Of a stretch of 48,611 bases of DNA, positions 18,126-22,832 are shown one piece after another. Under the pieces are notes generated by a model. That model searched no databases, was not told the DNA's origin, and worked only from the letters and a program-made list of their open reading frames with translations. How positions within the stretch are numbered: the stretch's first letter is position 1; each line of letters starts with the position of its first letter. Source of the stretch: an uncultured Pelagibacteraceae bacterium. Its GTDB lineage: Bacteria > Pseudomonadota > Alphaproteobacteria > Pelagibacterales > Pelagibacteraceae. The DNA lies in contig CACJRJ010000010.1 in assembly GCA_902595725.1 (NCBI GenBank), forward strand, positions 1 through 48,611, in the 5' to 3' direction. The position numbers and the translations under genes are program-made.

Positions 18126-19622
18126 ATGAAGTTATTTTTCATATTAGGAAATCAATTATTTCCATTAAAACATTTAAATGATTTTAAAAATGATCATATT
18201 TTTTTTATGGCTGAAGATTATCAGCTATGTACTTATGAAAAACATCATAAATTAAAAATTTTATTATTTTTGTCGGCAATGAGATCTCATGCAGATAATT
18301 TAAAAAAAAATAAATTTAAAGTTGAATATACTAAAATTGACTCAAGGGATTTTAAAAAAGATTATTTAGAAAAAATTAAAAAAATAATTAAGTCTAAAAA
18401 AATAATAGAAATTTCAAGTTTTGAAATTGAAGACAAATCTTTTGAAAAAAAATTTCAAAATTTTGTTAAAAAAAATAACCTTATATGGAATAAAATTAAA
18501 TCACCAATGTTTTTAAATTCTAGAGAAGAATTTAAAGATTACTTATCAAAAAATAAAAAACCTTTCATGGCAACTTTTTATAAAGGAACAAGACAAAAAT
18601 TAAATATTTTAATGAAGAAAGATGGAAATCCTGAGGGAGGTAAATGGAGCTTTGATGAAGATAATAGAAAAAAACTTCCAAAAAATATTAAAGTTCCAAG
18701 GTTTCCAAACATAACAGAGACAAAACATACAAAAAACTTGAAACCTATTATTGAAAAAATGTTCAATAGTCATCCAGGTAACATCAAAAATTTTTGGTTT
18801 GCAACTGAGTATAATGATGTTGTTAAACTTTTAAATTTTTTCATAAAAGAAAAATCAAATTTATTTGGTGATTATGAGGATGCAGTTCATCAAGAAAATA
18901 ATATTCTATTTCATAGTGCACTAAGCCCATATATTAATTTAGGTCTTATAACTCCTGAATTTATAGTTACTAAAATTTTAGAATTTCATAAAAAAAACAA
19001 AATCAGACTTAATTCTCTGGAAGGATATATAAGACAGGTTATTGGCTGGAGAGAATTTATGAGAGGAATTTATCAAAATTATAGCGATGAAATGGAGACA
19101 AGAAATTTTTTTAAACAAAATAGAAAGATGAAAAATTCATGGTATGAAGGTACAACAGGCTTACTTCCTTTGGATTATGCAATTAAGAATGCAATACACA
19201 ATGGCTGGTCACATCATATTGAAAGATTAATGATACTTTCAAACATTATGAATTTGTGTGAGCTAAGACCCAAGGTTGTTTACAAATGGTTTATGGAAAT
19301 GTTTGTAGACTCATCTGATTGGGTGATGGTACCAAATGTTTATGGAATGGGTTTATTTAGCGATGGAGGAATTTTTGCAACAAAACCATATATATGTGGA
19401 TCGAGTTATTTTATGAAAATGATGGATTTTAAAAAAGGAGATTGGTGCAACACCATGGATGGTTTGTACTGGAGATTTATAAATAGAAATAGAAATTTTT
19501 TTTTAAAAAACGCTAGACTTTCAATGATGGTAAGAATATTTGATAAAATGAAAACTGAAAGAAAAAAATTAATTTTGTCTGAGGCAGAAAAATTTATTAA
19601 TAAAAATACTTATGGGAATTAA
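18126..19622 (+). CDS. FeS-BCP-type photolyase/cryptochrome lacking the Fe-S ligands
   Basis: 498 residues over the full length of the bacterial (6-4) photolyase/CryB class (PhrB, CryB). The N-terminal antenna-type domain begins FFILGNQLFPLKHL. The FAD domain shows the INLGLITPEFIV block, YIRQVIGWREFMRGIY, SHHIERLMILSN with the paired His363-His364, FVDSSDWVMVPNVYGMGLFSDGGIFATKPY, and GLYWRFINRN. Of the four [4Fe-4S] Cys I recall for PhrB (350, 438, 441, 454), the first three positions here are Pro348, Lys436 and Asp439. The intervening loop is shortened, and only Cys441 lies near the fourth. It likely repairs (6-4) lesions or senses light without a cluster. The 3' end overlaps the DCC gene by 11 bases. 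Confidence 0.88.
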   Translation: MKLFFILGNQLFPLKHLNDFKNDHIFFMAEDYQLCTYEKHHKLKILLFLSAMRSHADNLKKNKFKVEYTKIDSRDFKKDYLEKIKKIIKSKKIIEISSFEIEDKSFEKKFQNFVKKNNLIWNKIKSPMFLNSREEFKDYLSKNKKPFMATFYKGTRQKLNILMKKDGNPEGGKWSFDEDNRKKLPKNIKVPRFPNITETKHTKNLKPIIEKMFNSHPGNIKNFWFATEYNDVVKLLNFFIKEKSNLFGDYEDAVHQENNILFHSALSPYINLGLITPEFIVTKILEFHKKNKIRLNSLEGYIRQVIGWREFMRGIYQNYSDEMETRNFFKQNRKMKNSWYEGTTGLLPLDYAIKNAIHNGWSHHIERLMILSNIMNLCELRPKVVYKWFMEMFVDSSDWVMVPNVYGMGLFSDGGIFATKPYICGSSYFMKMMDFKKGDWCNTMDGLYWRFINRNRNFFLKNARLSMMVRIFDKMKTERKKLILSEAEKFINKNTYGN

Positions 19623-19962
19623 AGTTTTTTTTAACAATTCATGTAGTATTTGTAGATTGGAAATAAATCATTACAAAAAAATTTCTGATAGTAATTTAGA
19701 ATGGATAGACATTACGAATAATGATGATGCTCTAAAAATTACATCAAAAACACAAGAGGAATTGCTTAGAAGGCTTCATGTAATTGATAATGGCAAAGTT
19801 ATTGGTGGAGCCAAAGCATTTATTATAATTTGGTCAAAAATTCCAAAATATAATTTTTTAGTAAAAATATTTTCAATAAAACCTCTTTTTTTTATTTTTC
19901 ATTATATTTATGAATTTGTTGCATATTTTTTATTTTTAAAAAATAGAAATCAACTCAAATGA
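19612..19962 (+). CDS. DCC-family (DUF393) thiol-disulfide oxidoreductase-like protein
   Basis: 116 residues. The N terminus, KVFFNNSCSICRLEINHYKKI, is the DCC motif region with a CxxC pair. The family consensus Asp before the first Cys region is replaced by Asn. A hydrophobic stretch near the C terminus (FFIFHYIYEFVAYFLFL) may touch the membrane. DCC proteins recur near photolyase and DUF2256 genes in proteobacteria, but their substrate is unknown. It overlaps the photolyase upstream by 11 bases and the DUF2256 gene downstream in an ATGA pattern, so the three are probably translated as one unit. Confidence 0.85.
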   Translation: MGIKVFFNNSCSICRLEINHYKKISDSNLEWIDITNNDDALKITSKTQEELLRRLHVIDNGKVIGGAKAFIIIWSKIPKYNFLVKIFSIKPLFFIFHYIYEFVAYFLFLKNRNQLK

Positions 19963-20084
19963 AAAAACAAAATTTACCTTTTAAAATTTGTCTAGTTTGT
20001 AAAAAACAATTTTCTTGGAGAAAAAAATGGAGATTAAATTGGGATCGAGTAAAATACTGCTCCAAAAGATGCTCATCTAAATAA
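19959..20084 (+). CDS. DUF2256 zinc-ribbon mini-protein
   Basis: A 41-residue gene, easily missed because of its size. It starts at the ATG overlapping the DCC stop (ATGA at 19959-19962). The protein reads KICLVCKKQFSWRKKWRLNW, then VKYCSKRC, giving CxxC (residues 11 and 14) and CxxxC (34 and 38), a likely four-cysteine zinc site. That is the DUF2256 pattern, whose members cluster with cryptochrome/photolyase genes. Biochemical role unknown. Its 3' end overlaps the convergent second photolyase by 8 bases. Confidence 0.85.
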   Translation: MKKQNLPFKICLVCKKQFSWRKKWRLNWDRVKYCSKRCSSK

Positions 20085-21222
20085 GTTCCTGAATTATCTT
20101 TGGTATATAATTTTTAAAATTGAAAAACCCTTTATTACAATATTTCCAAGAATACTGATCAATTTTTCTGTATAAAAAAGAAATATTTTTAAGATTATTT
20201 GAATTTATATAGTCAAGATTTTCTCCAACAGATGGATATAAAGCTAATAAATTTTCTTTCATATCTTTTAAATCTTGAATATTAATCATTTTACAATTTA
20301 ATGATTTATTCTTTAAATCTTCAATTTGATTATTTATAAGTGACTTTTTGAAGTTTAGAACCTTTTCATCTAATTTTATTTGCCTAGTTTCATTTCTATT
20401 AAACACAAAATAAATATTTTTAAATGATTGATCATTAAAGTTAGATTGTTCAAAAGACAGATTATTTTCAAATATTAATAAATCTTTACTGATAGATAAA
20501 TTTGCATTTATAAAATTATTATTCAAAAAGGAATAATTTCTATCATCTACTACTGGGACTGGTTTTTCATTAAGTTTAATATTTTCAAATCTATTATTAG
20601 TGAACTTTTTTATATTCCATTCAGAGGCAACATAATTTTTACCTTTTGTTTGAATGCCTGCAACCCATCTCCAACCTAAAGTATTAGATGCACTGTCTCC
20701 ATCAAAAAGGTATTTCATAAAAAACTCAGCACCTAGTTGCCAAGGCAAACCAAGAGTAAAAATCCAAATACTTGCAAACCACATTCTCGCGTGATTATGA
20801 AGGTAATTATAATTTTTAAGTTCATTTACCCAATAATCAAAGCATTCAATATTTGTTTTACCATTAATTGCATTTAAATAGTTTTGATTATCTTTAAAAT
20901 TTTCTTTTATTTTTTTTAAATCTTCCAAATAATCTGACCAAACACTTGGTCTTAATTCAAGCCAACCTTTCCAATAAATTCTCCATAAAACTTCTTGAAT
21001 AAATTTTTCATTTTTTATGAACGAATATTTTTTTAAACATTTATCTATTATTTCTTTTTCGCTAATTATTCCGTGAGACACATATGGAGATAGACATGAA
21101 ATATTTGTTCTTTGATTTGGTCCATGATCAAAGTTTCTAAATTTAGAATATTCTATAAGATTTTTTTCAATAAAATTATTTAATCTTTCAATAGCAAAAC
21201 TTCTTGACGGCTCAAAATTCAT
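20077..21222 (-). CDS. NewPHL-like photolyase with N-terminal FAD domain
   Basis: 381 residues. The catalytic FAD-binding region is at the N terminus, not the C terminus. Visible blocks are NISCLSPYVSHGII (residues ~40-53), EVLWRIYWKGWLE (77-89), LHNHARMWFASIW (141-153) and DGDSASNTLGWRWVAG (174-189), the conserved FAD-pocket segments of photolyases. From ~225 to the end is a predicted mixed alpha/beta region without recognisable antenna-domain motifs. This inverted order matches the NewPHL group, reported to repair cyclobutane dimers in single-stranded DNA. Assignment to that group is by architecture and from memory. It shares an operon with the SDR gene and the 40-residue ORF upstream. Confidence 0.82.
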   Translation of the reverse strand: MNFEPSRSFAIERLNNFIEKNLIEYSKFRNFDHGPNQRTNISCLSPYVSHGIISEKEIIDKCLKKYSFIKNEKFIQEVLWRIYWKGWLELRPSVWSDYLEDLKKIKENFKDNQNYLNAINGKTNIECFDYWVNELKNYNYLHNHARMWFASIWIFTLGLPWQLGAEFFMKYLFDGDSASNTLGWRWVAGIQTKGKNYVASEWNIKKFTNNRFENIKLNEKPVPVVDDRNYSFLNNNFINANLSISKDLLIFENNLSFEQSNFNDQSFKNIYFVFNRNETRQIKLDEKVLNFKKSLINNQIEDLKNKSLNCKMINIQDLKDMKENLLALYPSVGENLDYINSNNLKNISFLYRKIDQYSWKYCNKGFFNFKNYIPKIIQELI

Positions 21223-21234
21223 ATTTCGAATTTT

Positions 21235-21357
21235 TTATTTTATGACTAAATATGAAATTAAAATTAACCAAAAAAATGAATAGTAATAGTAAATATATTT
21301 TCTTGTAAATAATGAAGAGACTGAATTTTTATTTTTATTTTTTTTATTTTTTTTCAT
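21235..21357 (-). CDS. Putative 40-residue single-pass membrane peptide
   Basis: Fills the gap between the SDR-type gene and the second photolyase. The ATG overlaps the SDR stop by one base (TAATG), an arrangement seen for genuine coupled genes elsewhere in this window. The peptide has a Lys/Asn-rich head of ~11 residues, then SVSSLFTRK, then a hydrophobic span YIYYYYSFFWLILISYLVI, so a signal-anchor topology is plausible. The photolyase starts 12 bases downstream. I do not recognise a family. AT-rich sequence makes chance short ORFs likely, hence the modest confidence. Confidence 0.45.
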   Translation of the reverse strand: MKKNKKNKNKNSVSSLFTRKYIYYYYSFFWLILISYLVIK

Positions 21358-22064
21358 TAAATTGAAGACCTTCCACCATCTACACCAATTATTTGTCCTG
21401 TTATCCAAGAACTTTCTTCAGTAAGTAAAAATTTAGCCATTGCAGCAGCGTCTTTTCCCTCACCAATTCTTTTCATGGGGTGAGCTTTTGCAATACCTTC
21501 GGCCATAATAGTATTCTTTAATATTGGTTGAGAAATTTTTGAATTTGTTAAACTTGGGGCTATACAATTTACTCTAATATTTGGAGCAAACTCAGCTGCA
21601 AGAGAAATCGCTAATCCTTCGATCGCAGCCTTAGTTGATGCAATAATTGAATGGTTAGCAAAGCCTCTTTGTGCTGCAACTGTAGAAAATAATATTATTG
21701 AGCCTTTATTATTTTTTAAACTATCTTGATATGCTTTAATAATTTCAACTGCAGAGTAAAGATTTAATTTCATACATTTTTGAAAGTCATCTTCCTTTAC
21801 CATTTTAAATGGCTTCAAATCTATCGAGCCGACACAATAAGCTATTCCTTTAACTTCAGAAATTTCAGATTTTACATTTTCAATAAAATTATCTTCCAAA
21901 ACATCTGCTACAGTATAGGTACACTTTAACTTTTCTGATAAAGATTTTAGTTCTTTCTCGTTTCTTGAAACGAGATGAAAGTCATGCTTTGAATTATATA
22001 ATTTACTTGCCAAATTAGAACCAATAGAACCTGTTGCTCCAAAGATTAAATACTTAGCGCTCAT
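21357..22064 (-). CDS. SDR-fold protein lacking the catalytic tyrosine
   Basis: 235 residues, Rossmann fold: IFGATGSIGSNLA cofactor loop, ADVLED, CVGSIDLKPF, then GSIILFSTVAAQRG with Ser127. The classical YxxxK is degenerate. Lys145 is present, but the Tyr position (141) is Ile, in NHSIIASTKAAIEGL. It continues NIRVNCIAPSLTNSKI and SSWITGQIIGVDGGRS, as in classical SDRs. SDR genes of this kind accompany photolyase/DCC clusters in other proteobacteria. Dehydrogenase activity is doubtful, so binding or a different chemistry is possible. It leads the minus-strand repair operon and starts 14 bases after the psiE-like gene. Confidence 0.85.
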   Translation of the reverse strand: MSAKYLIFGATGSIGSNLASKLYNSKHDFHLVSRNEKELKSLSEKLKCTYTVADVLEDNFIENVKSEISEVKGIAYCVGSIDLKPFKMVKEDDFQKCMKLNLYSAVEIIKAYQDSLKNNKGSIILFSTVAAQRGFANHSIIASTKAAIEGLAISLAAEFAPNIRVNCIAPSLTNSKISQPILKNTIMAEGIAKAHPMKRIGEGKDAAAMAKFLLTEESSWITGQIIGVDGGRSSI

Positions 22065-22560: not shown

Positions 22561-22613
22561 GAATGTAAAAAATTTTGCAAAAAATTGAAATCATTATAGT
22601 TAACATTCACACT

Positions 22614-22832
22614 ATGTTTAAAGTTATAATTATATATGAATTATTCTTTTTTTTCTTTTGGAATATAATTTATTGGGGAGCAGATCTAAAAGATTTTGCT
22701 CAAAACGAGTCTTTAGCTTTCATTTACTATATTTTAACATCAATGGCTTTGGGCTGGGTAATAATTCATGTAATAAGATATTCTTTTGGACAAATACCAG
22801 ATCCCCGTGAAATCGCAAAAAATAAAGAATAA
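22614..22832 (+). CDS. Hypothetical small membrane protein
   Basis: 72 residues from the ATG at 22614. A TTG 39 bases earlier would add MQKIEIIIVNIHT, which looks less natural. Two hydrophobic helices: IIIYELFFFFFWNIIYWGADL, and AFIYYILTSMALGWVIIHVIRYSFG, followed by a soluble tail QIPDPREIAKNKE. I recognise no family. It converges with argG (4-base gap). The inverted repeat at 22505-22560 lies in its 5' leader. Confidence 0.65.
   Translation: MFKVIIIYELFFFFFWNIIYWGADLKDFAQNESLAFIYYILTSMALGWVIIHVIRYSFGQIPDPREIAKNKE

Follow-up and report, generated by a model that had tools for sequence, protein, structure and literature searches.

Which of the six genes packed into positions 18,126 to 22,064 of a contig from an uncultured Pelagibacteraceae bacterium (SAR11) belong together, and what might the small ones contribute to light-driven DNA repair? 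The contig in question (CACJRJ010000010.1 of GenBank assembly GCA_902595725.1; 48,611 nucleotides), taken over its whole length and referred to below as the window, is contig 10 of the 43 contigs that make up the 1.08-Mb source genome, which is 84% complete. The locus encodes two photolyases, a first enzyme of the (6-4) type and a second one of the NewPHL type, and it also contains genes for a short-chain dehydrogenase/reductase (SDR), a DCC1-like protein (DCC), a 40-codon open reading frame (ORF) and a member of DUF2256, a named family of unknown function. A preliminary description of this DNA had proposed that all six genes act in concert. With moderate confidence, we read the locus as a predicted light-driven DNA-repair cassette in the order SDR, (6-4)-type photolyase, facultative DCC and DUF2256, situated beside an independently kept NewPHL gene, and with DUF2256 as a candidate accessory of the photolyase.

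Co-occurrence of DUF2256 and (6-4)-Type Photolyases

We surveyed 299 Pseudomonadota genomes, that of the window included, together with 14 named control genomes. DUF2256 was found in 88 of the 299 genomes and the (6-4)-type photolyase in 93, with 78 genomes possessing both (Fisher p ~1e-44). The association was also seen when the genomes were collapsed to 181 genera (57 with both families, 6 and 10 with one of them, 108 with neither; Fisher p 2e-29) or to families (24, 1, 4, and 47 in the same order; Fisher p 1e-14; the family total of 76 was taken from the highest family number and may be one too many), and within the 192 of 299 genomes that encode a class I/DASH-type N-terminal domain (77, 10, 15, and 90; p 8e-27). 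Some photolyase was present in each of the 88 DUF2256 genomes, as compared to 193 of the 299 genomes overall. Of the control genomes, those of Caulobacter and Synechococcus elongatus gave matches to DUF2256; matches to the (6-4)-type photolyase came from both of these and from Haloferax. Judged from gene content, DUF2256 is strongly associated with the (6-4)-type photolyase across the Pseudomonadota. No paper containing both "DUF2256" and "photolyase" was found in the open-licence literature, where the family name turned up in just two papers and where absence does not equal absence in print.

The two genes lie within 10 kb of each other in 40 of the 78 genomes that possess both, and not in the other 38. 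By BLAST, a photolyase-superfamily gene was found at most 5 kb from DUF2256 in 34 of the 72 genomes with loci in hand, and coordinates placed a (6-4)-type photolyase within the same distance in 12 of the 16 other DUF2256 genomes, which gives 46 of 88 in all; some "class I" labels in DUF2256 neighborhoods are low-scoring or overlap the DUF2256 ORF (e.g., in genome G116) and may be wrong. In none of the 15 genomes with the photolyase only was a DUF2256 found within the roughly 10 kb of sequence that surround the photolyase gene.

Several observations weigh against DUF2256 as a dedicated partner of the (6-4)-type enzyme. Ten of the 88 DUF2256 genomes are without this photolyase, 15 of the 93 photolyase genomes are without DUF2256, and the p-values given above take account of phylogeny only by collapsing genomes to genera or families. 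In a sister SAR11 family (40 genomes), the association is weak (29 with both, 3 with DUF2256 only, 5 with the photolyase only, 3 with neither; p 0.08), and DUF2256 stands beside the photolyase in one of the 18 photolyase loci opened (L059), being unlinked in 17. DUF2256 of this family instead adjoins a gene for a protein of 605-629 amino acids in ten of ten loci opened (L290-L299), carboxylesterase-like by eye in the three loci read, and in the parts of these ten loci in view nothing matched representative photolyase, SDR or DCC sequences. Seven of 128 plasmid records (H1, H2, H4, H13, H14, H16, and H18) were opened over 6 kb on each side of DUF2256. An annotated photolyase is adjacent in two of them (Acinetobacter and Salinivibrio), a FAD-binding-domain protein is encoded about 4.3 kb away on the Pseudoalteromonas plasmid, and no adjacent photolyase was seen over this distance, in an incomplete gene table, on those of Spirosoma, Erwinia, Azospirillum, and Agrobacterium. 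Since DUF2256 also adjoins class I/DASH-type photolyases or a flavin adenine dinucleotide (FAD) oxidoreductase, its partner may not be the (6-4)-type enzyme only.

Two further neighbors were recorded. In the three sister-family loci read, the 605-629-residue gene is followed by one that looks, by eye, NAD(P)HX-repair-like, and a FAD amine-oxidase-like gene stands beside DUF2256 in different genomes (L104, L113, L139, L153, L154, and L162; by Pfam for the L139 copy).

A Cassette at the folD-argG Site of SAR11

The first photolyase is present in 81 of 101 SAR11 genomes, the source genome included. We compared two sets of loci: 20 loci of the same genus selected by the presence of this photolyase (L033-L052), and 80 named Pelagibacteraceae loci selected by the presence of NewPHL, for which NewPHL losses are hence uncounted. 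All 20 loci of the former set also carry the SDR and DUF2256 genes, with SDR divergent to the photolyase gene and DUF2256 downstream of it. In the 80 NewPHL loci, we found DUF2256 in 66, the photolyase in 65, SDR in 53, DCC in 15, and the 40-codon ORF in one. The preliminary description had treated all satellites as conserved companions; this was not confirmed for all of them, DCC being patchy and the 40-codon ORF being rejected as a conserved companion. DUF2256 accompanies the photolyase in 65 of 65 photolyase-bearing NewPHL loci, and the sole locus with DUF2256 but without the photolyase ends at a contig edge. SDR is out of view in 12 photolyase loci because the stretch ends inside the photolyase gene, and it is present in all 53 loci in which this gene is not cut.

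Both flanking genes, folD and argG, are visible in 27 loci, of which 16 possess SDR, photolyase and DUF2256 and 11 possess none of the three, while NewPHL stays in place. The whole genomes of these 11 comprise six in which photolyase and DUF2256 lie about 340 bases apart elsewhere and five with neither; in the genome of locus L203 both are present. The 11 empty sites and the six genomes with copies elsewhere argue that the cassette is moved or lost en bloc, independently of NewPHL. By these gene arrangements, the real unit is SDR-photolyase-(DCC)-DUF2256, with SDR, photolyase and DUF2256 all or none at the folD-argG site. A scatter of the families in related genomes, which the preliminary description had named as evidence against its proposal, was found for NewPHL and DCC but not for the photolyase-DUF2256 pair within the genus. 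In the genus, DUF2256 was sought in 40 of 61 genomes and found in 25 of 26 with the photolyase and in 1 of 14 without it, a co-occurrence to be expected because the genes are linked.

The starts of the SDR and photolyase genes are divergent across a spacer of 10-28 bases in 66 of 100 loci (27-28 bases in 63, 10 bases in three; L036 and L208 among the 100 derive from the same genome, and L226, at a stretch end, is outside the 66). This arrangement suggests that one bidirectional promoter in the spacer drives both genes, whose starts would be leaderless or nearly so. The 27-28-base spacers (e.g., of L204 and L211) are very short and conserved in length, and many copies contain a TTATATTTA-like core, which points to leaderless promoters that overlap. 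The window and L203 are without this divergent arrangement, and SDR lies beyond NewPHL instead. An SDR-peptide-NewPHL operon, as described for the window, is indeed present there, but its full order recurs in L203 only (1 of 80 loci), with SDR beside NewPHL without the peptide in three more (L206, L209, and L210). It is a local rearrangement in which SDR has been displaced from its divergent place upstream of the photolyase gene.

Two side observations concern the surroundings of the cassette. A TIGR03643 protein of 70 amino acids is encoded between SDR and NewPHL in L209 and L210 (5790-5999; E 6.5e-27 for the L210 copy), and similar ORFs occur in photolyase/DUF2256 loci (L118, L119, L157, and L173) and in two plasmid records (L286 and L287); no match to it was found in the window. 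By these co-locations, TIGR03643 appears to be another small photolyase-linked family. In L033-L052, the folD-argG interval is a hotspot, with varied unrelated genes (by eye, glycosyltransferase-like, VCBS-like and metallo-hydrolase-like) inserted between cassette genes in different genomes.

DUF2256 as a Putative Zinc Finger

The window protein matches the DUF2256 profile (PF10013) with 65.7 bits, compared to a curated cut-off of 25. An alignment of 13 copies displays the pattern CxxC-x19-CSxxC, with W20, R21, K22, W24, and W28 invariant, and the window copy possesses 14 basic residues versus one acidic residue. Because of this cysteine pattern and the basic composition, DUF2256 is likely a zinc finger, and it probably binds nucleic acid. 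A CxxC...CSxxC pattern is shared by the zf-FCS zinc fingers, and a paper on zf-FCS-like domains names DUF2256 once (PMC4047054). Searching the profile against the PDB yielded no solved structure of the family; the best match, ribosomal protein L24 (E 0.007), was not taken as homology.

The First Photolyase Lacks the Fe-S Cluster Ligands

Residues 3-493 of the first photolyase align by phmmer with Agrobacterium PhrB (best PDB match 5kcm/4dja; E ~5e-80), and this full-length similarity, together with a DPRP N-terminal domain and a FAD_binding_7 domain, places the protein among the DPRP/PhrB-like photolyases. Consistent with the preliminary description, the ligands of the iron-sulfur (Fe-S) cluster are absent: C350 of PhrB is replaced by Leu, the stretch with C438 and C441 is deleted (10 residues), and C454 is shifted by one in the alignment and has no exact counterpart. 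The enzyme shares with the FeS-BCP group (Agrobacterium PhrB and Rhodobacter CryB) the full-length match and six key residues, but it is not a member by its cysteines, and it differs further by the exchanges Glu403 to Met and Trp342 to Tyr.

We aligned 84 (6-4)-type photolyases (from fetched loci only, with alignments of more than 300 residues; the partial G354 was dropped and the split G398 left out). All four Fe-S cysteines are present in 42 sequences and absent in the other 42, the latter comprising 40 examined from Pelagibacterales and the enzymes of G355 and G369. Near FAD N5, 42 of 42 Fe-S-less sequences have Met and 42 of 42 sequences with the cysteines have Glu, and the position of Trp342 is Tyr in 40 of 42 Fe-S-less sequences, with Trp or Phe one place before. 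His366, Leu370, Trp390, Met410, Tyr424, and Tyr430 (PhrB numbering) are identical in all 84. In PhrB, His366 is essential for repair, Trp342 and Trp390 are electron carriers, Tyr424 is needed for lesion binding, and a role is also given for Tyr430 (PMC4619345).

According to PMC9178010, 37 of the 50 proteins in subgroups Chl, HC, Ac, and M have a Met near FAD N5; this residue is common in subgroup M without being unique to it. The window enzyme combines it with the absence of the Fe-S cysteines, and its residue pattern is that described for subgroup M, including PromaPL, an assignment made by description. The first photolyase appears, by this pattern, to be a further member of a known Fe-S-less subgroup. 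With PromaPL of Prochlorococcus and Phr2 of marine Synechococcus it shares the DPRP domain, the PhrB lesion-site residues, the lack of Fe-S cysteines and the Met near FAD N5 (PMC9178010; PMC9426592), and it differs from them, with PromaPL compared by description only, in its linkage to SDR, DCC and DUF2256. A Prochlorococcus photolyase is also treated in PMC3686209. No match to the first photolyase was found in phage records.

The Fe-S-less photolyases possess cysteines of their own at positions 35, 378, 424, and 441 (window numbering; C35 in 38, C378 in 37, C424 in 40, and C441 in 42 of 42 sequences), where the Fe-S types mostly have Ala, Ser or Thr. It is possible that they form a new disulfide or metal site.

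The Second Photolyase Has an Inverted Domain Order

NewPHL photolyases (Emmerich et al. 2020) are a known kind. In the window protein, FAD_binding_7 covers residues 74-198 of 381, which corresponds to the inverted domain order that had been noted from the sequence. An AlphaFold2 model computed from a 34-sequence alignment (mean predicted local distance difference test score, pLDDT, of 94.1), which superseded one from a single sequence (pLDDT 35.8), is helical as far as residue 207 and has alpha/beta structure from about residue 247 onward, and Foldseek matches it to photolyases over about 220 residues. An N-terminal FAD domain followed by a C-terminal sealing domain identifies the protein as a NewPHL. 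These sequence and model data predict the known NewPHL/Phr7 architecture, with the N-terminal FAD domain and short C-terminal alpha/beta domain that are shared by Prochlorococcus Phr7 (PMC9426592; PMC13274461). At E <= 1e-40, NewPHL was found in 19 of the 299 Pseudomonadota genomes, own genome included, of which 19 have DUF2256 and 18 the (6-4)-type photolyase.

SDR, DCC and the 40-Codon ORF

The SDR protein matches the fold profile and possesses a glycine-rich motif (GATGSIG), and its catalytic Ser-Tyr-Lys triad (YxxxK) is incomplete, the Tyr being replaced. In its subfamily, this Tyr is Ile (68) or Val (3) in all 71 sequences scoring above 170 bits, with Ser and Lys kept; five sequences below 170 bits read SYK twice, SIK once, SVK once, and V-K with the Ser outside the alignment once. 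The Tyr is present in the two PDB homologues shown and in two ordinary SDRs of the same loci. The preliminary description had offered, as one possibility, that the DCC, DUF2256 and SDR proteins handle flavin, redox state or photo-oxidative stress. Because the canonical catalytic Tyr is absent, a plain dehydrogenase role of SDR is weakened, and the protein would be either non-catalytic or of another chemistry. The subfamily (E <= 1e-50) occurs in 7 of the 299 genomes and lies at most 1.5 kb from DUF2256 in six of them, own genome included; genome G178 is without either partner.

The DCC protein was assigned to the DCC1-like family (PF04134) by its profile match and its CxxC motif. Relatives lie at most 5 kb from DUF2256 in 5 of 72 genomes examined, others adjoin NewPHL in G395 and G347, and profile matches occur in 61 of the 299 genomes, many of them unrelated to the module. 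No Pfam family match was found for the 40-codon ORF. Between the window and L203 it differs at 7 of 123 nucleotides (four synonymous and two non-synonymous codons), compared to 72 of 1146 for NewPHL, and these differences say little either way.

Layout of the Locus

All six ORFs were recovered at the positions originally reported for them (Table 1). The two operons meet tail to tail with an 8-base overlap (20,077-20,084), as had been described. The accompanying statement that within each operon all but one junction overlaps was inexact: three of the four same-strand junctions do overlap (photolyase/DCC by 11 bases, DCC/DUF2256 by 4, SDR/peptide by 1), but both plus-strand junctions are among them, and the 40-codon ORF is separated from NewPHL by a 12-base gap. 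According to PMC9649867, there are only two earlier reports of photolyases in operons.

Table 1. Genes of the photolyase locus, with positions in the window and supporting evidence
Feature	Position	Strand	Evidence
Predicted prokaryotic (6-4)-type photolyase, Fe-S-less, 498 aa	18126..19622	+	Pfam DPRP (1.1e-62) and FAD_binding_7
DCC1-like thiol-disulfide oxidoreductase family protein, 116 aa, CxxC kept; facultative member	19612..19962	+	Pfam DCC1-like, 8e-16
DUF2256, 41 aa, CxxC-x19-CSxxC; putative zinc finger	19959..20084	+	Pfam DUF2256, 4e-18
Predicted NewPHL-type photolyase, 381 aa; N-terminal FAD domain, C-terminal alpha/beta domain	20077..21222	-	Pfam FAD_binding_7 at residues 74-198
ORF of 40 codons with a hydrophobic stretch (by eye); coding status uncertain	21235..21357	-	ORF call
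SDR-fold protein without catalytic Tyr (Ser127-Ile141-Lys145)	21357..22064	-	Pfam adh_short_C2, 7.5e-43
aa, amino acids.

The two window photolyases are the only matches to the FAD_binding_7 profile in the source genome. Among the matches listed, the nearest named relatives are Pelagibacteraceae genomes such as AG-457-O17 (NewPHL 93% identical). A further ORF, encoding 85 amino acids, lies at 22,575-22,832 of the plus strand. By eye its product contains hydrophobic stretches, and Pfam gave no match. Copies were seen close to NewPHL, DUF2256 or the photolyase gene in 7 of the 20 loci L033-L052 and in 10 of the 80 named loci; they are often only about 35% identical, and the ORF is a possible further companion.

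Possible Functions and Alternative Explanations

In the cassette as we picture it, the first enzyme would repair (6-4) photoproducts, or cyclobutane pyrimidine dimers (CPDs) as argued for Fe-S-less forms, without an Fe-S cluster, and NewPHL would repair CPDs in single-stranded DNA. DUF2256 would act alongside the photolyase as a small basic zinc finger that most likely binds DNA or the enzyme and so aids lesion access or turnover, while SDR and DCC would be auxiliary, perhaps with NAD(P)- or thiol-linked roles in flavin upkeep or light stress. Taken one step further, DUF2256 may represent a so far unnoticed accessory subunit of bacterial photolyases, above all of those of the (6-4) type, a zinc finger of about 40 residues by which the enzyme is loaded or turned over on damaged DNA. 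The Tyr-less SDR would then be another non-classical partner, expressed in SAR11 from the same bidirectional promoter as the enzyme; we put this forward tentatively, at somewhat less than even chances.

The substrate of the first enzyme bears directly on this picture. (6-4) repair is plausible as a prediction, and the literature disagrees on it, since PromaPL is called a prokaryotic 6-4 photolyase without an Fe-S cluster (PMC9178010) and the Fe-S-less Phr2-like photolyases of most picocyanobacteria are suggested to act likely on CPDs, not on (6-4) lesions (PMC9426592), which speaks against our assignment. If the latter applied here, the cassette would be a CPD-repair unit. No class I/DASH-type enzyme (PF00875) was found by profile search in the 84% complete source genome, and a CPD enzyme for double-stranded DNA is therefore otherwise not seen in it; given the description of PromaPL, we nevertheless regard a CPD-repair unit as unlikely. 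The first enzyme might, instead of repairing DNA, be a regulator of the cryptochrome type, like the CryB protein of Rhodobacter, which regulates gene expression (PMC9178010). This seems very improbable in view of the lesion-site residues of PhrB, which are kept in 84 of 84 sequences and include the His366 that PhrB repair depends on (PMC4619345).

As to the companions, they might be part of a general regulon for stress by light or singlet oxygen. They would then co-occur with photolyases since bacteria living in sunlight require both, without being functionally tied to the repair enzyme itself. DUF2256 adjoins a LitR-type MerR/B12 regulator in L107 (Pfam MerR_1 and B12-binding) and a relative of this regulator in L147, a FAD amine-oxidase-like gene lies at most 5 kb away in 7 of 72 genomes examined, and the carboxylesterase-like neighbor in the sister SAR11 family points in the same direction. 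In Pseudomonas, light-inducible LitR/PplR clusters (phrB, SDR, FAD oxidoreductase, cryB, folE, and others) likewise group a photolyase with SDR and redox companions near a light-responsive regulator (PMC9758184), a general argument that companions of this kind are regulated by light; DUF2256 is part of the cassette studied here, whereas the cluster description consulted in that source contains no "DUF". A shared habitat alone would fit less well with the strong association among genomes that have another photolyase, where DUF2256 occurs in only 10 of 100 genomes without the (6-4)-type enzyme, and we consider the stress regulon a rather doubtful explanation. Loading of a cofactor (Fe-S, FAD or antenna) onto the photolyase would suit a tiny Cys-rich protein tied to a multi-cofactor enzyme. 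However, DUF2256 is kept with Fe-S-less enzymes (20 of 20 loci L033-L052, and G355 and G369), so that we have set aside Fe-S loading as unlikely; this finding bears on Fe-S and not on antenna or FAD. Several Fe-S photolyases have been made alone in Escherichia coli, which counts against cofactor loading as well, and we give this role little credence. The concerted six-gene unit draws on the tight overlaps in the window, the same layout in L203, the fact that five of the families recur in pairs elsewhere in the Alphaproteobacteria, and a NewPHL-photolyase-DUF2256 row in G319 (L119). We have rejected it as barely credible, since NewPHL stays where the block is absent or elsewhere (11 of 27 loci; photolyase and DUF2256 elsewhere in 6 of these 11 genomes), DCC is patchy and the peptide nearly unique. 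The more general notion of two atypical photolyases with conserved companions is supported: DUF2256, the SDR and DCC subfamilies and NewPHL recur beside each other or beside photolyases in other Alphaproteobacteria.

Implications

The kinds of enzymes encoded at this locus are known. Two findings stand, judged from genome comparisons: a cassette of SDR, photolyase and DUF2256, and, as the new result, a widespread partnership between DUF2256 and the (6-4)-type photolyase, the mechanism of which we can only infer. The tightness of this association with one enzyme class makes the function of DUF2256 directly testable in culturable bacteria. Most high-light and LLI Prochlorococcus likewise possess a pair of an Fe-S-less PhrB-like and a NewPHL-type photolyase (PMC9426592), and the presence of the same pair in SAR11 and Prochlorococcus suggests that it may be a common solution to the repair of ultraviolet damage in the iron-poor surface ocean.

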